Source: Phoronis ovalis (taxonomy: Eukaryota > Phoronida > Phoronidae). From it: a stretch of DNA of 20,715 bases. Below the pieces are notes generated by a model that was not told the DNA's origin, searched no databases, and saw only the letters and a list, made by a program, of their open reading frames with translations. Position numbers and translations under genes: made by a program. Where the stretch lies: assembly GCA_028565635.1 (NCBI GenBank), contig JAOXYB010111047.1:1-20715 (forward strand), read 5' to 3'. Below are positions 3,928 through 20,503 of this stretch, piece after piece. Numbering within the stretch: the stretch's first letter is position 1; each line of letters starts with the position of its first letter.

Positions 3928-4140
3928 CAGTTAAAGAAGTCACAATATAAAATACATTTATTGATATATTTATTTATTGACGAACATAAAATCTTACATC
4001 TGTATGGTCACTACATAATTAAATTACAAACTAAACAAAATCTACATTGTCAATCTATTTTCAAACTACCAAATATAACAAACAGACTATTATAAAATGC
4101 AAATAAATAATGTACAACGTGCATGAAATACAATATATGC

Positions 4141-4230
4141 ATGATCTTAGTTTTATCAATTAGTCCCACATTTAACTTACTGTAAAACGTCAATAAATAC
4201 AAATATATGATCTTAGTTTTATCAATTAGT
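4141..4230. repeat. 24-bp direct repeat upstream of the PDI promoter
   Basis: An identical 24-base block starting ATGATCTTAG occurs at 4141-4164 and 4207-4230, 66 bases apart. Each copy is followed further on by ACGTCAAT (4187-4194 and 4263-4270). This suggests a local duplication that copied a CRE-like ACGTCA half-site towards the PDI promoter. Confidence 0.65.
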
Positions 4231-4260
4231 GATCATTAGTCCCTCATATAAAACCTGTAA

Positions 4261-4479
4261 GAACGTCAATGTGCATGGAAAACGTGACTGGCAAGCGGAT
4301 AGCCTACTTCCCAAACAAGCCGGTTCCACGTGACATTATCGACCAGTCACAAATCCACACGCCAGCCTTGTCCGTATAAGAGCGCATGCGTGCTCTACGC
4401 CGACCTCTTGCCACGTTGAAAGTGGTAGTATAAACTCTGGGTTGTAAGTGGTCTCACTAAACACCAAAATAAAACAAAA
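4261..4479 (+). promoter_or_regulatory. PDI promoter with TATA box and ACGT-core motifs
   Basis: Directly upstream of the PDI start codon lies a TATAAA (4429-4434) and, 27 bases after its first T, an initiator-like CTCACTA centred on A4456. This predicts a short leader of about 24 bases. Upstream are several ACGT-core sites of the type bound by bZIP factors: ACGTCA (4263-4268), ACGTGAC (4282-4288), CCACGTG (4326-4332) and GCCACGTT (4410-4417). The sequence GCGCATGCG (4382-4390) resembles an NRF-1 site. PDI genes are commonly induced by the unfolded protein response through XBP1/ATF6 at CCACG-containing elements, so the cluster fits, but no full CCAAT-N9-CCACG element is present. Start site and factor binding are inference. 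Confidence 0.6.
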
Positions 4480-7400
4480 ATGAAGTTTGCAACTGTTGTA
4501 TTTAGCGTGGTATTAGGTGCTTTATTGACCCAAGCAGAAATTAAGGAAGAAGAAGGTGTTCTAGTACTAACTGATGATAATTTCGAAGGAGTAATCGCCG
4601 ACAACAAATACCTTCTGGTAGAATTTTGTAAGTATATATGCAGCTAAATGGCCATTCTTGTTGTGCAATGTTTGGTACTTTTTGCGGTATTATCTTTATG
4701 TAAGACACTTACTCAGTATTGCATAAATCAATGTACATGTTATCATCAATAGCGATTTAACATTTAAGACTTGTAGAATATGTTGCTCCCCACTTGTCTA
4801 TACTATAGATTATATTAATTATGTAATAATACCGGCATCTAGGCTGAGGGCAGTACTAAATTTTGATTTTAAACCATCATTGATAAAGTTTGCCCATTAT
4901 TGAAACATATGTCTGTTGCTCAGTCTTCTGTAGTTGATGTTGTAGAGTTTACAAGGAAGCATCCGGCTGTGTAAACAATGTAACGAGTACAAAACACAAC
5001 CTGTGTTTGCCTTTTTTGTCACTAGGGCAAAATTTTCCGTCGATTCTAAGAAATAGGCAGAGTTTGTACAGCTTTCATGTAAAAATCATCTCTCCGTAGT
5101 ACCGTGTGTAAACGAAAATATACTTTTTCAAGCCTACTGATTCGTATTCAGTGCCACTAAGTTGTGTTGAGTGTGACATCTAGAAAACATATGGTTCGTC
5201 TTGCAACTTCAGCTGCAGCTTATAAAAATTGCAAAAACGCAACACAAAACATGTTTATGACATTGTTCTTGTGTTCAGAAATATTCATTTTTCAAAAACA
5301 TATTTTTTTTGATAAATTAAAAATAGGTGTTAACATATGGTAGAAGGCCCATTTCAAAAATAATTTTACTCTCAGATGTATGTTAGAGGATGTGCAGGCA
5401 ATTAAAAGACACGTCAGTATTACAAAGACTTGCCTATTTACAGTTTTACACGTGTTGCTTTTTGATAAAATAATTAGAATACCCACATTTGCCATTTACC
5501 ATGTGGGTCTATTAAATAAGGGACTATTCTGGTGTTGTACAATTGTTTATAACAAGATTTATATTTAGATATAAATCTAAATATATTGATGAAATTCAAC
5601 ACAGTGAAATGCAAAGTTCAGTTATTCTTAAAAATTATAATTAAAATGTTATTATATTTATTTTGGACTTATTTTGGATAGCTTAACCACCTGTTCAGAT
5701 ACTATTAATGGTAATTACTGAACATTGAATATTGATTACTTAATAGCTTAGTATTTACTAAAACTGAAATAGGTAACACACATGTTTACCTTTGTATTTC
5801 CTCTAGTAGTTTTACATCTAGTATTTTCATTGGTGTTTATTTGTAGATGCCCCCTGGTGTGGTCATTGCAAAGCTTTGGAGCCTGAGTATGCCAAAGCTG
5901 CTGGAACTCTTGCAGAAGAAAAATCAGAAATCAAACTGGGCAAAGTTGATGCCACAGCACAATCCAGTCTCGCTGAAAAATATGAGGTCCGAGGTTATCC
6001 AACAATAAAATTTTTCCGTGATGGAAAACCATCTGAATATGGAGGTACACAAAAAAATTTAGATTTATAGAATGTGTCCTGAATATATTGTTATATTTAT
6101 GTTAATTGTCTGTGGAATATGCAAGTTGTTTTCATTAATATTTTCCTTATCATTGTGTAATTGCTGTTTTATCAGCGACAAGATTTGTTACATAAAATAA
6201 AATGAAGCAATTATGTTATGAAATTTAATATCTCAGTGTAATTACTTCAATTTCTGCCTGATTACTGTTTGAACTAAGAGAATAATAGAAATTTATAGAC
6301 AAAGGTATGGAAAGGGCCTTCCTATAAGTTTAATTAGTAATCATGATTTGTACTTTAATATTTTTTAATTCTCAGGTGGCCGTACTGCATCTGAAATTGT
6401 CAGCTGGCTGAACAAGAAGACTGGTCCAGCCGCCAAAACTCTGACAACTCCTGATGAATCCAAATCATTTGTTGACAAAGAGGATGTTGTTGTTGTTGGT
6501 TTCTTCAAGGTAAACAGTTGTTAAACTTTATTATTTTTTATTCTCTGGCATGTTACTAAAGGGAAATTGAAGTAGAGTTAAAGTATTCGAAAGATTTCCA
6601 TTAAAATATAAGCAATACATCTAAAAATGCTTCTTTTTGAATTTTAACTGTAGTATTTACAATCAGGTCATTACCTAGGATCCTGACTGACTTTCGACAG
6701 CATGTAGATGTCTTAATGTGTTTGACCTGTTTTCATTGTTGAGCATCATGAATTGTATGTATTGAAGGATATGCGTCAACAGGTTTTATTGCCACTAGAG
6801 ATAGTTATTAAATAGGTGTCATCTAGTCAAAATTGTCGACGTAACGATGTTGTGGCAAAACCTGATTGGTTGGAAAAGGATGAATGAAAATTAAGTGAAT
6901 TAATAATATCACACAAAATTTGTGTGCTCCTACTGTGTGTTTCATGATGTGGCAATTTAGAAAAAAAGGAAATGATAGGTTAAGAAAACGAGGAAATGAT
7001 AGGTTAAGAAACAGATTTCCGGTCAACTCCATAACATTTTAGCTTGAGTGCTAAAATTATGATCAGTGTTAAAGCTTTGAATTTTACCTAACTTGCATTT
7101 CTTGACAGCTCAAAGCTAACATTTTTTTCTGGAAAAGACTTATTTTAGTTTCCTCCCATGTATAGGCCTACTGACCACTTAGTTGCTAACGGAATTGTGC
7201 TTAAGAATGATAAAAAAAATTGCCAGTATAGTAACATTGTCAGAGTTGCCAAGCATTGGTCAGTCAAAAAGGATAGTCAATGTTCTGCCATGAATCGAAA
7301 CCTTGGAAGAGCAGCAAAACCTTGGTTTGACAAAATTAAAATCTAAGCATTCCTGTCCAATTAAGACATAATTAATGTCATGTGGTGAATTTCAATGCTC

Positions 7401-10400
7401 ATCAGTATTGAGTCTTCTAGATGTGCATCTATGCTGCACTGATGTACTTCTAACTATTCCTTGTAGGATGTGGAATCTGATGGTGCCAAAGCTTTCTTGG
7501 AAACAGCTGCTGATACAGACGATATCCCCTTTGCTATCACATCAGCTGATGATGTATTTGCTGAGCACAAAGTAGAAAAAGATGGTATTGTACTCTTCAA
7601 GAAGGTAAAGGGCATTTGATTGGTGTAAAGTTCTCTTGTGTTGTCAGTGACATAGCAGTGCTAATGAAGAAGAAGTTCAGGACTTTTTATCTGCTTGTGA
7701 CTTAATTTAAAATGAATACTGTAGTATTGTTGTTATTCAATGATGAAATTACTTAATGGATTGTTTTTTCAGTGACACAGCTGTGCCCTGTCTGACATCA
7801 TGGATGGTTATATTAAATGTTTTGCTACTTGTCATTGTATTTTGTAGTTTGACGAAGGACGAAATGTTTTTGAAGGCGGCTTTGATGCAGGCGAAATTGC
7901 TGCATTCATCCAAGCTAACCAGTTGCCACTGGTTAATGAATTCACTGATGAAGTATGTATCCATTGTTATTCATGTTGTTACTAATGTTGTATCTTTAAG
8001 TTTGATGAAGGCCGTAACGAATTTGACGGCGAAGAGTTAACTGCTTTGGAAATACTGAAGTTTGTTCGTCATAACCAACTACCCCATGTTGTCGAGTTTA
8101 CGCAGGAAGTAAGTTCACGCAGGTTGCTGTGGCCGTGGTGCTCTTCCATAAAATCCTTTTTTAATGTTGTTAAATATTTTATTGAATGCAAACAAGAATG
8201 TTAAGCTGAAGATCAAAGCTTTTAATGTTGCTGGTTGATATTTATATTTGTATCTTTTACCAAATCTGACTTATTATTCGTGAAATTCTGTCGTCTTGCT
8301 CCGATGCGCTTCTGTCTGTACGTTGAGTCTAGGGAGTGTAAAATTATGGTTTATAGTGCTGCTTTTTGTTTTTTGTACAGCTACGCTAGCTAGTGTCTAA
8401 ATGCATGTCAGTCAAACAGTCATTATGGCCAAATTGCAGAAGGTAATAATTGATTATGTCCGCTATGAAATATTGTTATGGCTTACGACATTTGTTCAGT
8501 AGTTCATTGTTCAGTTGCATACATTAGAATATAACGTGTAGTAAATAAACTGTTGCATGGTGATTTACTTGTGCTTTTTATTAGCAAGATTATGCATTTT
8601 TAATTAGTGATTCAATCTGTATTGCTGTGTGAGTAAAGTGTCTGCTTGAAGCAAAACATTTTCTGCACTTGCACTAAGTTGATGTTCATTGTTTTTGTAT
8701 TGTAGATTATTGTAGTCCACAGTAGTTAGATTCACCAGTAGTACAACCTAAATATCTATATGCATGAGCTGTCTATCACTAGATTCATGTTATTTCCGGA
8801 AACCCTCTCCCCAGTGTTTCGTACTATTTTCATTTTTCCCTAGAATAGGTACTAATGTACTATTTGCATGCACTTGGTGGAGCCAAACATTCGTCGTGTG
8901 ATTCATTCACAAATGGTATGATGGAAGTGTTTTGGGTACCAAGTACATGCAAATAGAATATTATTCCTAATCCTCGTCCTTTGTACTTATATTTCTCACT
9001 AGTAGTTTTTAATGCAATTTTTTATCGTAATTATAATGAAAGATGACTTGTGTTTCTAGGCTGCTTCTAAGATATTCAGTGGTTCCGTCAAAAGTCATAT
9101 TCTGTATTTCGTTAGCAAGAAGAGCGACGACTTCAGCAGTAAAATGGATGAATTCCGTTCTGTTGCTGTGGATTTCAAAGGAAAGGTAAGTTCACTTGTG
9201 AAATGTATGGCAATCTTACTGTACAGTAGAAGAAATGAGTCACTGTAATGTGCAGTGAAATGGTACTTGAAAGGCACCTGTTCTATGTTGTGATATTTAT
9301 AAAGTCTGACCGAACTTTAACCGCTAAGAGGCACTAGATGTCGGGGATTTCTTGAGTTAGCCAATCAGGTTACAGAATTTTTAACTGCACCATTTTTTGA
9401 CCAAAATTAGGTTATAATTCGGGGACTTCAGGGAAAAGTATAATTATTTTTGTATAGACATAGACAGATTCAAAATAGAATAAGTTCCTTTTATATAAAC
9501 AAATGTTGTGGAGAACCCTATTGTTATTGATTTTATTCTTACAAAATGCATATATTGGAGTGCAACCCTGCCTCATAAAAGTCCTAGTTGCTAGGTTTTC
9601 CACTTTTCTACTGAATTGTGCATTTGAGTGTGAAGTATTTAACTTTCTGGATTAAGCATGGTAAGAATAAACAAAATTATAAAAATTTGAGTGTATTTTT
9701 GTAATTAAAATTACCATCTGCGTTGTGGTACTTATCACAGAATCTTATGTTAGTGTTATATGTACAATATATTGTTCCACGTAGTTTATCTATACAGGTT
9801 AATAGTAATTTTTAATATTTGTAAAGTATTGATTCATGTCAACTTTTCACAGGTTCTCTTTATCTACATTGATACTGATACAGAAGACAACCAGCGTATT
9901 TTGGAATTCTTTGGTCTCAGCAAAGATGATGTACCATCCGTCCGCCTTATCAATCTCGAAGAAGACATGACAAAATTCAAGCCTGAAAGTACTGAATTGT
10001 CAGCTGCCAGTTTCCGATCATTCGTTCAAAATTACATTGATGGCAAACTCAAGGTAGATATGTATTTTCATTAAATATCCATACTTCTTTTAAAAGTCTG
10101 ATTGATTGTTGATGGGTAGAGATGTTTGTGTTCATGATTACATGCTAAAATTCTTGAAGATTGGTCATTCCTATGCTGAAAGCTTGCCAGATTTCTTGAT
10201 GATGGGATCATTCCTATATGCTGAGATCTGTATTTGCTTGTATATATTATTGTGTTCTTGAAAGCAAAGCCAGTCACTGACGTTTGTCATATTATATAAA
10301 TCATCCACACACAGTGAGTGTTCTACATATTCCATATTTTTATGTTGTTAATTTAGAACAAATGTGTATGTTTTTGCAGCCTCATCTGATGTCTGCAGAA

Positions 10401-12260
10401 ATCCCTGAAGATTGGGATAAAGAACCTGTTAAAGTACTTGTAGGAAAAAATTTCGTTGATGTAGCCAAAAATAAGGATAAGAATGTTCTTGTCGAATTTT
10501 GTAAGTATTTTAAATGCTCAACATTTTTTAGCTGGATACTTCTGGAAGCTTTTGCTTCGTTACCTGTTGAGTTTCACTTTTGTATAGGTGTCTACGAGTA
10601 AATTTTTTTTTCAAAAATTATTTTGCAGATTTCTGTTAGTTATACCTAAAAGCATGAGCAGTAATTAAAATGCATATTGTTGTGTTTCAGATGCCCCATG
10701 GTGTGGTCACTGTAAACAGCTTGCTCCCATCTGGGATGAGCTTGCTGCAAAATTCAAAGATCATGAAAATATTGTTATTGCTAAGATGGATTCTACTGCT
10801 AATGAACTAGAAGATGTTAAAGTTCAGAGTTTCCCAACAATTAAATTTTTCCCTGCTGGGTCAGATGAGGTAGGTGTATCGTGTGTTTTTGTGCATTGTT
10901 ATAGGCTTCGAAGTTTGTAGTCCAATAGTATCATAGATATTTAACAATATAATGAATCTATTACCATGTGCATTAAAAAATATGAAAACATCACACAGAT
11001 TTAATAGCGTGAGACACGTGTTGATACTCCTTTTTTACTAATTTAACAATGAAACCTCCATATTGTATGAGGTGAGCCGAAAAGTGTGTACTCTCCAAGG
11101 AGGTAGTTTTTAATGGAATAGTTCATATTTAGTTAAATTCAACTATGTAGACCTTAGACAAAATTAAATAAATATTCACTGAACAATCTTATTGTTATTT
11201 TAGGTTGTAGATTACAATGGTGAACGTACATTAGACGGATTTACCACATTCTTGGAAAGTGGAGGAAAAGTAGGTGCTGGGCCATCAGAGGAGGTCAGTT
11301 AGTTCATCAAATGCTTAAGAGATGGCAGCAGCTTACCACTCATGCATGAAGATCTACTAACTCGCTTTTTTAACTGTGCCCTTTTAACAACAGTCGTAGG
11401 ACTACTAACTTATATAGTCGTAAATCTTAAAAAACCTTGTCTTGCAGCAGCAGGTAGTATAGGCAGAAATTTGTTAACATTAATTGCACTAACTGTTCTT
11501 GTTGTTGAGGCATGCACTAGATATTTCGATGTTTTATTTACTAACCGTGAACTACTTTCATATCTGCTTTGGAAAATAACTGCTTATGCCAACAGCAGCA
11601 AAGTGCAAAATTACTTGACCAGCTTTTTAAGCATGTTAAAGATACGCTTAATCGCTTGTATGGATGAAATGACAATGATCCTGCGTGTAGACAAATCATA
11701 GCATACAGATAGCTAGCTTATAAAGTTTTGTATTTGCTATCCCCAGTGACCTTGGACCTGTGTTTTTACAAATACCCAACTAATATATGTACAATCAGCA
11801 CTAAAGAATTTTGCACTCTATGATAGCATTTATGCAACTATAAATAACATACAAAGGACTAATAACAGACTGCATGTATGTCTGTGTTTCCAAATTATGA
11901 TTTGCTGGTTATTTGGCACTGTTAAATTGGTAGTGATATTTGTTAGAAACTTGAGTAGTGAAAATGGAGCTCCATTGGATGTTTTTGTGATAATCAAAGT
12001 AAATTTACTAGGCACTAATTGCAAAACAACAAATTTAATATGGTTCTGACAGCTTTCAACTCGGTCACCAAAATCAAAAGACATTACAAATAGCCGAAGC
12101 TCTCAGAATTAACGTACATTTATTATTCCACATATATTTACAAACATTTCTCTACAATGTTTTCTTGAATTTACAGGAGGTGGAAGGAGAAGAAGGTGAG
12201 GGTGACGAAGAAGAGGATCTAGAAGAGCCTGTAGAAGAACCAAAAAAAGATGAATTATAA
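4480..12260 (+). CDS. P4HB: Protein disulfide isomerase (PDIA1/P4HB type), spliced, 507/508 aa
   Basis: ER-lumen oxidoreductase that forms, breaks and rearranges disulfides and acts as a chaperone; in animals it is also the beta subunit of prolyl 4-hydroxylase. Coding exons: 4480-4627, 5847-6044, 6376-6509, 7467-7604, 7848-7952 (5a) or 8001-8108 (5b), 9060-9185, 9853-10053, 10380-10500, 10691-10869, 11204-11293 and 12177-12260. All introns are GT-AG and all phases match. With exon 5a: signal peptide 1-19 (cut after TQA), domain a with C54-G-H-C57, cis-Pro101, buried Glu48 and Arg118; domains b and b' (about 138-350); domain a' with C395-G-H-C398, cis-Pro439, Glu389 and Arg458; acidic tail; KDEL 504-507. 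The length matches the usual 508 aa and no catalytic residue is missing. The start ATG has an A-rich context and directly opens the signal peptide. Exon 5 is duplicated, so two isoforms are predicted. Confidence 0.97.
4628..5846 (+). other. PDI intron 1, no other gene seen
   Basis: A GT-AG intron of 1219 bases that interrupts the tyrosine codon just before the first active site. It contains a perfect AT-rich hairpin: AGATTTATAT (5555-5564), a 4-base loop, and ATATAAATCT (5569-5578). Short open frames on both strands near 5290-5570 look like nothing known. Confidence 0.7.
6510..7466 (+). other. PDI intron 3 with a 21-bp direct repeat
   Basis: A GT-AG intron of 957 bases. An identical 21-base block starting AGGAAATGAT occurs at 6967-6987 and 6991-7011. 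Open frames of 60-70 codons inside it lack any family features. No RNA gene seen. Confidence 0.65.
7848..7952 (+). CDS. P4HB: PDI alternative exon 5a
   Basis: A phase 0-0 exon of 105 bases (35 codons), bounded by a TTTTGTAG acceptor and a GTATGT donor. It encodes residues 207-241: the FDEGRN turn, the last helix of domain b, and NQLPLVNEF entering domain b'. It has the same length as the corresponding human PDI segment as I recall it, so it is probably the ancestral-length version. About 21 of 35 residues are identical to exon 5b. Both flanking exons splice to it in frame. Confidence 0.93.
8001..8108 (+). CDS. P4HB: PDI alternative exon 5b (tandem duplicate of 5a)
   Basis: A phase 0-0 exon of 108 bases (36 codons), bounded by a TCTTTAAG acceptor and a strong GTAAGT donor. 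It encodes a second version of the same protein segment: it begins [10 protein letters not shown], ends with [13 protein letters not shown], and has one extra residue in the helix. The identity to 5a is concentrated at the FDEGRN turn, NQLP and EFT, which are family-conserved positions, and there is no stop or frameshift. It therefore looks functional rather than decayed. Only 48 bases separate it from 5a. Substituting it for 5a gives a 508-aa protein. Confidence 0.92.
8109..9059 (+). other. PDI intron after exon 5b
   Basis: A GT-AG intron of 951 bases that joins either exon 5a or 5b to exon 6. I looked for a third copy of exon 5 here and in the preceding intron (7605-7847) and saw none. It contains the octamer-bearing inverted repeat described separately. 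Confidence 0.65.
8845..8968. repeat. Inverted repeat with octamer motifs in the PDI intron
   Basis: The core arms 8860-8878 and 8938-8956 are reverse complements at 18 of 19 positions, and weaker pairing extends outward to about 8845 and 8968. Each arm carries the octamer ATGCAAAT in opposite orientation (8862-8869 and 8947-8954). The loop is about 60 bases. It may be a small foldback element, or an RNA hairpin in the intron just after the alternative exon pair. Confidence 0.6.
9186..9852 (+). other. PDI intron between exons 6 and 7, nothing else seen
   Basis: A GT-AG intron of 667 bases, phase 0. AT-rich and without a recognisable gene, RNA or repeat. The next three introns (10054-10379, 10501-10690, 10870-11203) are likewise unremarkable. 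Confidence 0.6.
11294..12176 (+). other. PDI last intron, with a chance-length open frame
   Basis: A GT-AG intron of 883 bases (donor GTCAGT) between the end of domain a' and the acidic KDEL exon. A 119-codon open frame (11342-11701, + strand) with two hydrophobic stretches lies inside. It has no family resemblance, and its length is about what chance allows in a window of this size and composition. If the intron were retained, the protein would stop after two codons and lose KDEL. Confidence 0.55.
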
Positions 12261-12945: not shown

Positions 12946-15900
12946 CTATTTTCCCACTATAGGATTAGATAATCTGAAGATGCTCGGCAACATGCTTGAA
13001 AACTGAGCAAATATGTCTGCGGAAAGATCCTACAAGGAAAAAAATAACAACTCTTGCAACTGCAATTCGCAAGTGAACTTGTTGGAAATTAATACTTGCC
13101 ATTTTTGAAATTCAAATGACAGAACACAAACAGATGAATCTTTTATTTATTCGAGATGGTACCGTAAGCACAGCTAAATCAGATTTATACGCAAAGAAAG
13201 ACATGCAGTTACAAGTCCCCAAGAGATCATTCATAATACAGTTCATCCCATAAAACATCAATAATATAATGAGTATTATTTTCATTTAATATATTCTCCA
13301 AAATACTTATTATTTATACCGAAGTGAAAATGAGATAACCACCAATGTATGAATCTAGAAATTTCAAAGCTTGCCACTACTTGAGCAAAATATTAAGCAA
13401 TTTGGATGGGAATTTTACATTGCACATCAGGTGGATTTAAACTTTTATTCTAGAAATATTCATCCAGATTTTTTTTGTTGAGAAAGTGGAAAGTCTGAAG
13501 TAATAAACTCACGACAGCATACCTTAGGCACATGAAACTGTATAGTTTTTGATTCCGAGTTGCACAGTGAGGACATTTCCATAATAAATCCTTTTACACA
13601 CTTAAACACCAGTTCTGCTCTCTTCATACACCAAGGTATTGTCATTTCCTACATGAAGAAATGAACATTTAGAAAGTCAAATATTTTACATTAGGTAACA
13701 ATTATAATTTTCTTATTTCATTTGATTAAAAGTACACATACATGTGCAGGTATCTCAAATTATATTGTAAATCTGCATTTCTGTACTGCACCATGTAAAC
13801 AAAAAAAATCTTAAAGATTCTTTCGAAAATACTATAATGTGTGGGGGCCCTGTCACAATCATGGTCTGCACCTATATCAAATCCATATTTAAATAACTTG
13901 TACAAATTAAAACAATTTTGTTTTGACTCAACCAGAGAAATTACCACGGGAATATAATGTATTTTGTGCAATTCAGTTCTTACCTCAGACATTTCATGAG
14001 TCAGCAATAAAGGAATGGTTATCGTTGTAATATCATGTCTGAAACAATTCTTTAGAATATTCCTAATGGCCAATATAACGGGATGTCTGGATGATACATC
14101 TGTGTTTCGGAGACCTTCATCTGACACCAAATGAAACATCACATGCACTTCAGCCAAATTAGAATGCCGTGTGATATAAAAATCTCCAGTATACATTCGA
14201 TTTCCTCGATCTTCCCTCTGTAATGTAAACAGCATGCAAAGTACTTGTTTCAGTTTTACTCAATAGTCGCAACCCTGTACTCTCGTCGTATGTTGTGCCT
14301 TGTGTTTTAGTTTGTCAAGTCACATTTATATATATTTATGCGGACAACAGCTGCTGGCATCTTCTACTGTACAGTGTACTTCAAAATCTACATGATTATT
14401 GCATGCACATGGTAAAGCTCCAGTTACAAATTTAAACGTTCCCACAATTCTGCATGTTATAAATGAACAATCATGCATATCACTGCTCAGATTCGTTCAT
14501 AAACATAAAGATGTGAAAATGTTTGGGCTTGTGACTGGTGCTGCCGTTTCTGAATGAACCAAAGTCTGTGTCTCTTGAAATAATTTTCAATACTCCATAT
14601 TTTTTTTAATAGACATTGGGCCTTTGTTAAATTTTGAGCTTCTGGGACTGGCTTTTATTTAATTTGTTTCAACAAGTGAGATTGCATTATGGTAAAATCT
14701 TGTAAAATACTCCAGGGTGCTTTATATCAGATACAGTGCTTATTTATAGACTTGAGACACACTGTACACTGAAATAAGAGTGTGCATCTCATGATATGTT
14801 CAGTCCTGTAGATAATTAGTATAAATGAATGCAGATGTAAAGCTGGCCCAATTCCTAGCTGTGTAACACAACATGTTATACCTGATTTTCACTGGAACTG
14901 CTACTACTACTTTTAACACTGATTTTATCACATTCTTCTGCAAGTTTTCGTTGTTGTCGATATTCATTAGCCTTGGTAACGTTTTGTTCAATTATTGCAA
15001 ATTGCCTCTCTAAATCTGCGAAATGAAAATCTGTTGACTGGTGACAAACTGCTGCAAAATCTAAAAAAAAAACTAAAATAGAAAATCAGGCAAAGGTAAA
15101 AATTAATTAGTTCACACTTAGCAATTTTATTAATCAGCATTAATTAATCTTTGTACTGTCTATTTTCACACCATGCTTCACAAAATCACAGGCAGCCTAG
15201 AACTCGTGACAAAAAAGAAATGTTAAAATATTGCTTGTGAAATCAAATGGCAAACTGAAGTTACTAGAAATCTCAATGTTTTCCAGTCTTTGCTAATTAT
15301 AATATAATCATGTCACTTTAAGGAAGTAATCAACAATGTATGGGTTACTGAACACCACTGGGAAACATTGGGTGAATTAATGGACAGTATGTGTTATTCA
15401 AGCACCATTTTCAATACTGTCAGCAAAATTTGAACATTGCACAAAACAAAATACTGTTCAGTTACAGCAAGTCAATGTGGTTACCTTTTTTAATACCAGT
15501 ATATGCATTTAGTCTGTTGTCCACCAGTAGAATCATACCATTCAGTGAATTAGAATACAGGGACATGGCTGTCTGTATCCGCTGTGGTGGAGGGTGCCCC
15601 CTGTAAATAAAAAAGCCAAAGGTGTTCATGTCAAAGATTAGCAAACTTAATCAGTTGAATGGTATTAGAACATGGATATATACAAAAATGAACAGAAGTT
15701 ACAGGTTTGATAAATGTGATTACCACTGTGACTTCAGATTTTTACTATTTGCATGGCTCTTCCAACAGCATCAAATTCAAATTCAAGGATTTTCCAAGAC
15801 CATTATTTTATTTTTCAGTCAAGCTCATGTAGCGGAACTAGGAGGGTTCGGGGTTAAGAATTATTTTTGGTGATGGAACTGATTTTTAACGGTTTTTGGC

Positions 15901-18900
15901 AAATTTCAAACATCTTTTTAAAAGTACTTTAATTTTACTTCAAAGCACTTTTCATGATATTTTCAATTTTAGTGACTTTTTTATCATTAAGTTAAACTAC
16001 CAAATTAAACACTTTTCAGGTCTGCATGAACCAATCTGTTAACTGTAAACTGGTTAATTACGTCACTTGCAAAATGGCAGGTAAACGTGGTAAAAATAAC
16101 AATAGATTAGTGAACTGAAGTTTTTTATGTCACTAACTGTATAGTTGCATCAGTCTTAAAATTAAAAGCTTAGCTTACTATCTTAGTGATTTATTACCAT
16201 AATGACATAATGTATAAACAAAAAGTGCTTTTTTATTGCGTCAAACTTACCCTAATTTAGTTGCCTGATGTCGACATAAATCTAGGATATCACATGACAA
16301 TAAACGCAAGTTGTGAGTTGTCTTCAACTGGGCACCTAGAAACGAATATTGTGATCATATCAATTGTTCAAATATACAGGGGTGAGTTTTCAGGATTCTT
16401 GTACTCCCTTGTTGAATTGGGTAACTGTTTGGTTAGTTTTTTTGACATCATAATAAAGTATCCTTTGCCTGCATTAAAGAAGTAATTGCAAAAACTAACA
16501 GAAGAATTACAATCAAATATTGTAAATGAATAGACAAACCACACCTGTGCAACTGGTAAAATGTTCCCTGTTGGATCCTGTATGATTAGTGTGGGTCAAT
16601 TTTTGGTTGAAAATGAGACTACACGGCCATGATTACTGAATTAGACAAAAATTAATCTTGCCAGCTCAATTAGCAATACAATTTTAAATAATGTAAATGT
16701 ACTAAACTGTAGGATGTATGTTAATTTAACAGACAGACATTTTCCCTCAGGATCAGCACAGATTTCATTAGCCACTATGTTTGAAGTTTACCGTAACCTT
16801 CACTCCGGTACGACTTACCAAGATGTATTGTAAAGCTTTCTTCCATTCTACTAGACACTGTTTGTTGTATGTCATCACTAAAACCTGATGATACAGAACG
16901 TTGTCTCTGCCTGAAAAATAAAATTTACTAAGTCCATTTCTAAACCAAACACGAAAGAAAACACTATCAGATAAATGTACAGAAATAAACAGTTGGCTGT
17001 AAAATTGCTATAATATCACTCAGGATGCTGAGCGTAAAATCTTTATTTGTTTCTAACAGGCCAATTAATGAAGTGCTTTGCCAACTTACTACAAGAAATT
17101 TTAACAGGAAACATACATCGCCAAAGGCATGTTCAAAAAGGCAATGGCCAAGGGGGTGAAACCTATGTTTCACTATGTTTACTAGCTGCATGACATTTTT
17201 TGGACAACCATAGGACAATAGACTATTTTCACATTCTAGGTGACATTACCAGTCATGAATCCAACAGATCCCATTCTGTGCTTTGTTAATGAATAGCGCC
17301 AGGCCAGTGCACAGAGGATTGCACGAGTGTTCATTCATGAAACATTGCAGTTAAGTTTAGATACAAGTCATGCACCCAAATGTATGCAATCAAAGTAACA
17401 CTGTACCTTTCAGCAACTCTGCAGCAGATCCTTATATTACAAGCAATGATTTAACAATTTAAGTAAGTTTTAGGGCGCAAACTTACATATATGTAGGAGT
17501 CCCAGAATGCATTTGGATATCTTCATTCACTTTCATTAGCCATTCTTTATATTCTCTTCTCTGGGTTTCTTGTAAATTTGTCAACTGGCTGTCCCACCTA
17601 CTTTCAATCATCTAACAAAAGCCAAACGTTGACAAAATTGTTATAAAGAAACAGAAAGTAAATGAAATATACATAACTGAACATCTATAAATAGACAAAG
17701 TGCAACAGCACGTTTCAACATAGCTGTATTATTAGTGTGAACTATGTAATAATAATAACAATGTTTACCTGGGTATTCTCAATATGTTTCTGAGTCAGTT
17801 GATTTACTTGTTCATCTGTACATGTTTTGCCCATATTTTTTAACGCTTCATCCAGTTCTGATGCTTGTCTGTAAGTACAGGGTTGTACACAAGAATTAAG
17901 TAAACTAAATGTTGAGTGTTGTCCAACAAAGTAAAAAAAAAAATGTATTTCCTTAATAATAATGCTTTTACGTTAAATGTTAATATTGCAAAATGTATTC
18001 ACTTGTGTTTTCAAAACTGACAAGATTATTCTTACTTTGCATTTTATATTTTCCCAATTTTTTAGTCCATATTTAATACATTTTTGTCAGAAGCCAAAGA
18101 TAAATACTTGGTCAGACTAAAAAAATTGAAAATACTTATGAACCAGTAAAAGAAACTCAAAAATGAAGTAAACAATGTTTTAATGTTCTACCTACCTTTT
18201 TTCAAGATGAGCCAGATCTCTGCCTCTTTGTCGTAATAAGTCGGACACATCAATAGAATATGAATGTTCAAGTTTTAACATTTGTTCCAAGGCAGGTGAA
18301 TGGATCATTGTATGATACACTTCCGAGAAAACTAGTTCATCAGTTGCTTCTTCAGGCTCTGAAAATGCTTCCACTTCCTGTAGTAACAACACACAGTTGA
18401 TATATAGTTGATGATGAGAGTACAAGCCAATGTACATTTTGAGATTTTACATGGGAAATTTTATTTCTGACTGGCTAAGAACTGTTCCCCAAAAAGTTAC
18501 AAGCAGATTTTAGAAGGTTGTGTTTGATTGGTTTATCTTTGCTGTTCTTAATAAGAATCATCTTACTATTAGGTGGGTAAAGTTATTTGAAACTGTACGA
18601 CGTGTGAAAATGTACCAAGCCGTCCTAGACTTCCACATAATATATTCAGAGAATAGCCTTTAAGCAGTAACAAGCATACAGCTGCAGATTTTTTTCAATT
18701 CCCCTCTCGTGATTTTTGTTTCTCCACAATTGACATTTAATAAGAGACTGTTTGATTGTATATTTTGTAAAATTGTGAAAAAATTAGAGAGCCCTGTTCC
18801 CATTTCATGCATACAAATTCTGGGACAAATATGGTTGTCATGGATATCATAAAGAGAATCTGAATAGACTTGTATTGAACATTGGTCACTTTGAAAAATT

Positions 18901-19503
18901 AACATTTGCTTAACTTTAAGAATTTTCTTTACTGGAGCGAAGTGTAAACTTGCAGAATAGCTATTATAGTTACTTGATTATAGGCTTTGGTCCAACTGCT
19001 TGCCAGTAAATCAACATTAACTTGTCCTGTCTTTAATCTGTTTAAAGCGTCTGTACCATTTTCGTTGTACCACTTTTCAGTTTCTTGGATTATAAATATT
19101 TGTAATGATTTCTTCAACTCTGCAAAATAATAAATTAGATGTACAATATTTCATTACAGTCAGAATTTGTAAATGTACAGTGGGTTTAGCAAGAACACTC
19201 ATATTCTTTATTGTGCAGCAGAATTATATAGATTATAAATATGATACTATTTACACATTGCATGAGTCGTACTTTAGTAGCCAACTCATATCCCTTTAGT
19301 GTAGAAACTAGAAAACTGCAAACAGAGAGTCCAATTCATTTACCATCTTCCACATAACATGGTAGATTGTGAGCCTGCACAAGACGTCCTGTAAAATCAC
19401 TTGCAGACTGTTCCAACGGTATAATGACAGGAACAGTCAGGGTAGACTTCTGACCTTTACTTTGAAATGTGAAAACAAAATCTTTGCTTTCTGCAGTGGG
19501 CAT
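12946..19503 (-). CDS. C12orf4-family protein, spliced, 542 aa
   Basis: Homologue of human C12orf4, a conserved protein implicated in mast-cell degranulation and in recessive intellectual disability; its molecular activity is unknown. Coding exons in gene order: 19503-19344, 19119-18974, 18377-18196, 17868-17769, 17611-17487, 16910-16819, 16335-16251, 15600-15485, 15060-14882, 14217-13984, 13648-13523 and 13029-12946. All introns are GT-AG with matching phases. No signal peptide or membrane segment is visible. Residues 1-55 form a conserved N-terminal block containing [16 protein letters not shown]; about 120-245 is helical, charged and coiled-coil-like; 386-392 is a run of seven serines; 403-515 carries the best-recognised block ([40 protein letters not shown]). 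The last exon ends [15 protein letters not shown]. The length is close to the roughly 550 aa of vertebrate homologues. The first coding exon has an acceptor at 19513 and nine bases before the ATG with no stop, so an upstream start outside the window cannot be excluded. Confidence 0.93.
14218..14881 (-). other. C12orf4-like introns, nothing else seen
   Basis: A GT-AG intron of 664 bases after the serine-run exon. I see no nested gene or repeat here. The same holds for the other long introns of this gene: 13030-13522, 13649-13983, 15061-15484, 15601-16250, 16336-16818, 16911-17486, 17869-18195 and 18378-18973. Confidence 0.6.
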
Positions 19504-19512
19504 TATTTCAAC

Positions 19513-20066: not shown

Positions 20067-20177
20067 CATATTGCTTTTCCAATACACAAAAAAATAGCAA
20101 TCATGTTTTTTTGCAAAAATAGTTAAGCAAACATTTTTTTGGGCAATGAAAAATAGTTGAGAGTATATGTTTTTTGA

Positions 20178-20503
20178 GCCTACATGGCACATGTACTCCG
20201 CGGTCTCTTACAGTATGGAGCTGACGGTGGTGTGCCACTGGCTCGGGTACCTTTTTTAAGCCTACACGGCACACACGCCCCGTGGTCTCTTAGAGTATGG
20301 AGCTGACGTCGGTGTGCCACTGGCTCGGGTACCTTTTTAAGCCTACACGGCACACGTACCCCGTGGTCTCTTAGAGTATGGAGCGGACGGCGGTGTGCCG
20401 CTGGCTTGGGTACCTTTTTTAAACCTACACGGCACACGTACCCCGCGGTCTCTTAGAGTATGGAGCTGACGGCGGTGTGCGGCAGGCTCGGGGTACCTTT
20501 TTT
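20178..20503. repeat. 82-bp tandem repeat, four copies
   Basis: Four head-to-tail copies: 20178-20259, 20260-20340, 20341-20422 and 20423-20503. Each begins with CCTACACGGCACAC or a close variant, carries GGTCTCTTA and GTATGGAG, and ends with GGTACC followed by a T run. Copies are about 85-95% alike by eye and clearly richer in GC than their surroundings. Unit lengths are 82, 81, 82 and 81, so a reading frame is not kept from unit to unit; the open frame on the minus strand (20180-20437) is a by-product of the repeat. It is probably a small satellite array or the internal repeat of a mobile element. Confidence 0.85.

Follow-up and report, generated by a model that had tools for sequence, protein, structure and literature searches.

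We propose that a gene for a classical PDI in the phoronid Phoronis ovalis probably carries tandemly duplicated, mutually exclusive versions of exon 5, here called 5a and 5b. The gene lies within a stretch of 20,715 nucleotides (contig JAOXYB010111047.1 of assembly GCA_028565635.1), all of which was analyzed and is referred to below as the window. The original prediction had already regarded the two exons as probably mutually exclusive; that interpretation as a whole is supported in part, its exclusivity drawing good support from two further points, a 48-nt intron between the exons that holds a predicted branch-point adenine at +33 and selection acting on both copies.

A classical PDI gene with two versions of exon 5

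The window gene is a complete classical PDI (P4HB/PDIA1) with the domain order a-b-b'-a', two CGHC sites and an ER-retention tail (Table 1). Translation of the exon chain yields two copies of APWCGHC and a C-terminal KDEL, the product contains two Thioredoxin stretches and one Thioredoxin_6 stretch, and its best match in the PDB is human PDI, over query residues 12-506. A search of 77.4 Mb in 4805 contigs returned 28 scored matches to the protein, and those on other contigs, at 38-54% identity, evidently represent more distant PDI-family genes. The sequence searched is a draft and an incomplete portion of the genome, in which a search for the tRNA-synthetase family gave no match, and a second PDI copy may therefore be present elsewhere.

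Table 1. Exons and introns of the PDI gene around the exon 5 pair (window coordinates)
Feature	Position	Strand	Remarks
P4HB/PDIA1-type PDI gene, coding part	4480..12260	+	11 exons plus second exon 5; GT/AG exon chain, open frame
Exon 4, common donor AAG/gtaaag	7467..7604	+	exon-chain reading
Exon 5a	7848..7952	+	105 nt, 35 codons, phase 0-0, AG/GT borders
Intron between 5a and 5b	7953..8000	+	48 nt; in-frame TAA if retained
Exon 5b	8001..8108	+	108 nt, 36 codons, phase 0-0, AG/GT borders
Intron after 5b	8109..9059	+	951 nt
Exon 6, common acceptor	9060..9185	+	exon-chain reading

The two versions are adjacent homologous exons of similar length and equal phases, as tandem-duplicated exclusive exons are, and are identical in 21 of the 36 columns of an alignment that has a single gap (E = 1e-11 in a single comparison). 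The earlier description of two diverged exons, identical at about 21 of 35 residues, both in phase 0-0 with intact splice sites and giving 507 or 508 aa when one of them is included, thus holds in each particular: both are open with AG/GT borders, and the lengths read from the exon chain, stop excluded, are 507 aa with 5a, 508 with 5b, 543 with both and 472 with neither. Were the intron between them kept, the resulting fused exon of 261 nt would truncate the protein at its TAA. When 5b was searched against the same 77.4 Mb in 4805 contigs, the two scored candidates were both matches (E <= 0.001), namely the 5a and 5b sites themselves. Introns 3, 4, 5b and 6 were screened for additional or degenerate exon 5 copies in eight comparisons of 100 shuffles each, and no candidate rose above shuffled sequence, the lowest result (5a against intron 5b, on the opposite strand) being matched by 8 of 100 shuffles. 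A junction primer for human P4HB reads CTTTAAGAAG up to the exon 4/5 border and TTTGATGAAG beyond it, and the window reads CTTCAAGAAG and, in 5b, TTTGATGAAG, such that this border, the 5' border being the one compared base by base, agrees between the two genes (PMC7640458). Given this agreement, a single ancestral exon would have been doubled here.

Age of the duplication and coding constraint

Between 5a and 5b, 44 of 105 aligned codon bases differ. Synonymous divergence amounts to 20.5 differences over 22.3 sites (pS 0.92) and replacement divergence to 23.5 over 82.7 (pN 0.28); the synonymous sites being saturated and the replacements not, both copies would be old and long kept as coding exons. 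Among 20000 random sets of 44 substitutions none kept an open frame with at least 21 identical residues, and 73% gained a stop. The coding constraint looked for in exclusive exons is accordingly visible in both copies, and indicates that the tandem exon duplication is real and selectively maintained.

Retention of family-conserved positions, as originally predicted, is borne out by a 32-sequence alignment. Seven invariant exon 5 positions (F205, D206, E207, N228, E235, F236 and T237 of P0005) are present in both copies, and of eight positions conserved at >=90% (G208, N210, G214, F224, L230, P231, V233 and Q238) 5b keeps all eight and 5a seven. We also compared 118 segments drawn from 120 listed homologues, leaving out the overlong P0003 and P0004. 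Both copies hold the columns that are at least 80% conserved in this set, except column 36 in 5a, a D where 93% of the homologues have Q, and column 30 in 5b, an H found in none of the 118, which usually have L (83%). Column 25 of 5b is likewise an H found in none of the 118 homologues, and human PDI does have H there.

The 21 identities between 5a and 5b fall inside the range of 18-29 of 35 observed for the same exon between seven named lophotrochozoan species, and on this account the pair is perhaps much older than the species. The distance between 5a and 5b exceeds that from 5a to 81 of the 118 homologous segments and that from 5b to 55 of them, which suggests that the duplication is old or that the copies have sped up. 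A tree of the exon 5 segment (35 columns) contains no strongly supported fork, 12 of 15 being open, and neither dates nor roots the duplication.

The short intron and a possible steric block to joint inclusion

The intron between the exons is shorter than all 37 other introns measured or estimated (minimum about 113 nt), a small sample made up of 10 other introns of the PDI gene (190-1219 nt), 10 of the neighboring gene (157-664 nt) and 17 of 21 exon gaps in chaperonin genes (about 113 nt and up, the shortest read directly), four gaps having been dropped because they span missing model positions. The chaperonin gap sizes were estimated from protein matches, and such matches can run across an intron (the one at C4686:13946-14434 is about 220 nt too long); with this reserve, the 48-nt intron is exceptional in this genome. 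By pattern matching it contains a branch-point-like TACTAAT on the forward strand (7980..7986), whose A, at intron position 33, precedes the 3' splice site by 15 nt, and a second, looser match, TTCAT, with its A at position 21. RNA folding gives the intron by itself almost no structure (-0.3 kcal/mol), and the stretch from 5a to 5b folds at -57.6, a value without a shuffle control.

A distance from donor to branch point of about 50 nt has been proposed as the threshold against joint assembly (PMC7969005), and potential steric cases are given as 57 of 629 human exclusive clusters (PMC5740500). With its predicted branch A at +33 the 48-nt intron lies below the published value of about 50 nt, and joint inclusion involves no frame shift. 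The donors of 5a and 5b are ordinary GT and hence give no sign of U2/U12 incompatibility; moreover, as the frame is open with both exons, neither nonsense-mediated decay nor frame loss can enforce exclusion. By comparison with OGDH, steric mutual exclusion would be the best reading of the pair. Specifically, we posit that the 5a donor would be too near the 5b branch point for the U1 and U2 snRNPs to assemble together; 5a would thus not be spliceable to 5b, exon 4 would join either 5a or 5b, and the chosen exon would join exon 6. Going further, cell type or stage might govern the choice, 5a being closer to a default, and the chosen exon would replace the b-b' junction along with the end of domain b. 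Counting against exclusivity, introns of about 48 nt are spliced in some animals, such as nematodes, and just 15 nt separate the predicted branch A from the 3' splice site.

Splice-site strength and regulatory motifs

Splice sites were scored with matrices built from the other sites of the two genes. The acceptor of 5a scores 6.9 and that of 5b 0.8 (0.78), the latter being the sole AAG among 21 scored acceptors and the third lowest, and the donor of 5b scores 7.91 against 5.42 for 5a. With so weak an acceptor 5b could be rare, and we infer that the splice-site layout would make 5a the default and leave 5b in need of help. The word TGCATG, which we take to be Rbfox-type, occurs four times in the intron after 5b (8402, 8554, 8761 and 8865), where 0.66-0.67 occurrences are expected (P ~0.004-0.005, eight motifs having been counted); we treat these words downstream of 5b as a regulatory lead only. 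The same intron holds an inverted repeat of 37 nt (8842-8878/8938-8974), one arm of which includes the TGCATG at 8865. Upstream of the PDI start (3981-4480) an exact ERSE is absent, and CCAAA-N10-CCACG at 4311-4330 is near to, without exactly being, the ER-stress element.

Predicted consequences for the protein

Exon 5b encodes residues 207-242 of the 5b isoform. Of the human constructs matched in the PDB, 1bjx, presumably a construct of domain b, aligns to query residues 135-244, and 3bj5, presumably one of b', starts at 228; from these borders exon 5 takes in the final portion of b together with the opening residues of b', in agreement with the position first suggested for the segment. Over a stretch of 17 residues the net charge passes from -2 in 5a to +1 in 5b, with two histidines added, and direct reading assigns the same change (-2 to +1) to a stretch of 11 residues within the exon, which, assuming the fold of human PDI, should be helix. 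LPLVNEF in 5a becomes LPHVVEF in 5b, the net charge of the whole exon stays nearly constant (-7 in 5a, -6 in 5b), and neither the CGHC sites nor the KDEL tail is affected by the switch, b' too being for the most part unaffected. The likely effect would be a different hinge, or a different surface beside the client-binding b' domain.

Changed contacts with the alpha subunit of prolyl 4-hydroxylase had also been suggested as an outcome. This part of the original prediction fares poorly: the structure of the human prolyl 4-hydroxylase catalytic domain with PDI is described as having contacts with a, b' and a' and none with b (PMC9676403), MTP is reported to employ domains a, b' and a' (PMC7763558), and exon 5 reaches b' by its last residues only. 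As the solved complex is described without b contacts, partner choice of this kind is not favored and a change of hinge or surface is more likely. We tentatively consider, as a possibility that falls short of an even chance, that the pair forms an ancient regulated hinge switch at the b-b' junction, through which domain geometry and the choice of clients would be tuned to the tissue or stage; this would amount to an isoform system for classical PDI, whose origin may long predate the species and which related phyla may share or may have lost.

The pair in other species

Full-length PDI was compared with protein records, 8000 candidates being scored; among the best 120, which are at most 70% identical, none has separate best places for 5a and 5b. 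A search with the 5b region gave no match among six candidates at E <= 1, and one with the 5a region gave five vertebrate PDIs (11 candidates), a thin yield that would reflect the limits of a word search more than biology. The protein database is clustered at 90%, which would hide isoforms differing by one exon. PDI records labeled as isoform X1 (Haliotis asinina) or X2 (Saccostrea echinata and Lingula anatina) may or may not represent an exon 5 pair.

Alternative explanations

That the gene makes a single PDI, one of the copies (5b being the likelier) having become a relic or a very rarely used exon, is in our judgment unlikely. The weak AAG acceptor, the two histidines absent from the 118 homologues and the want of a protein record near 5b among the six candidates at E <= 1 speak for it; yet synonymous divergence is saturated while replacement divergence is low, every position conserved at >=90% in the 32-sequence alignment is kept in 5b, the 5b donor outscores that of 5a (7.91 vs 5.42), and such age should leave stops or lost sites, although the use of one copy may have been lost very recently. 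An assembly artefact or a misjoining of alleles, for which the draft state of the genome (4805 contigs) is the argument, is the least credible of the alternatives, given that 44 of 105 aligned codon bases differ, far beyond what alleles would show, and that the PDI matches on other contigs (28 scored in all) are merely 38-54% identical.

If both copies are genuine and used, they might still behave as cassettes, alternative without being strictly exclusive, with single, double and skipped forms all occurring. Both exon lengths are multiples of three and the four products (507, 508, 543 and 472 aa) are all in frame, as this would require, but the 48-nt intron with its predicted branch A at +33 opposes double inclusion and double skipping would delete the end of domain b; we regard such behavior as distinctly unlikely. 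Constant inclusion of both exons, giving a 543-aa PDI with the segment doubled at the b-b' junction, would leave the frame open and is nevertheless very improbable: a second copy of the segment would sit in domain b, none of the 120 listed homologues has separate best places for 5a and 5b, and the intron lies below the published threshold (PMC7969005). Mutually exclusive use of 5a and 5b thus continues to be our preferred reading.

Genomic surroundings

A neighboring gene of at least 11 exons occupies about 13523-19512 of the window on the minus strand, tail-to-tail with the PDI gene, and its product seems to resemble C12orf4. The window further contains an 82-nt tandem repeat in about four copies (20170-20503, 89% matches) and, at about 730-950, an inverted repeat seen by eye (CTTGCTCAAGTCCTTGTGGACTT ... 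AAGTTCACAAGGACTTGAGCAAG) that looks like a small mobile-element hairpin; Rfam gave no match in the window at gathering thresholds. Elsewhere in the genome, a match to the Cpn60/TCP1 chaperonin family (C679:16833-18455) covers almost all of the family model in a single intronless open frame, and is a candidate retrocopy, Hsp60-like gene or contaminant. The gene order of the mitochondrial contig, C1114, is chiton-like and places atp6 between cox3 and nad3, the frames being named by direct reading; no tRNAs were found on this contig by ARAGORN run with the bacterial code. A single move of atp6 from the chiton-like order makes three breakpoints by our own count, and three breakpoints is also the distance given for Phoronis psammophila against Katharina (PMC3285623). 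A large mitochondrial inversion is reported as common to molluscs, Phoronis and, with further change, entoprocts (PMC2728741).

Comparison with known systems

Classical PDI has usually been diversified by gene duplication (PDIA2, PDILT, ERp57 and others). Should the exon pair be as proposed, a switch confined to b-b' within one gene would be a natural experiment on this junction, separate from catalysis, and would allow the control of client choice by b-b' geometry to be tested cleanly by a swap; an ER chaperone would, in addition, join the genes in which exon choice is set by the distance from donor to branch point. The original prediction knew of no description of an exon switch in a classical PDI, and in keeping with this we found no printed case of exclusive exons in a PDI gene in the literature, as judged by titles and the openings of abstracts, subscription papers aside. 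The strings "exon" and "splic" are absent from a paper on PDI gene neighborhoods (PMC5722932), and P4HB and "disulfide" from the main texts of PMC9741552 and PMC5740500. Human P4HB, an orthologous kind of gene with the same exon 4/5 border, has splice variants described as lacking or truncating domains, unlike an exon 5 switch, and the main text of the paper on these variants does not contain the term "mutually exclusive" (PMC7640458). Exclusive exon systems of this kind are known; the gene and the position in the protein appear to be new, and we do not claim priority.

In alpha-tropomyosin, as in the PDI pair, the exclusive exons are adjacent and in frame, and the tropomyosin branch point is unusually distant from its acceptor. 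The PDI pair differs in that its whole intron is short and its predicted branch point is 15 nt from the acceptor; the likeness lies in exclusive splicing enforced by branch-point position, as reported for alpha-tropomyosin (PMC7969005) and as we propose here. Exons 4a and 4b of OGDH differ in that their branch points have been mapped, whereas that of the PDI pair is predicted, in that their intron measures 118-131 nt in birds and mammals against 48 nt here, and in that the proteins are unrelated (PMC7969005). They are nonetheless like the PDI pair in being an ancient exon duplication in a metabolic housekeeping gene, and are reported to be kept exclusive by branch points whose distance to the 5' splice site is 25-41 nt (PMC7969005).
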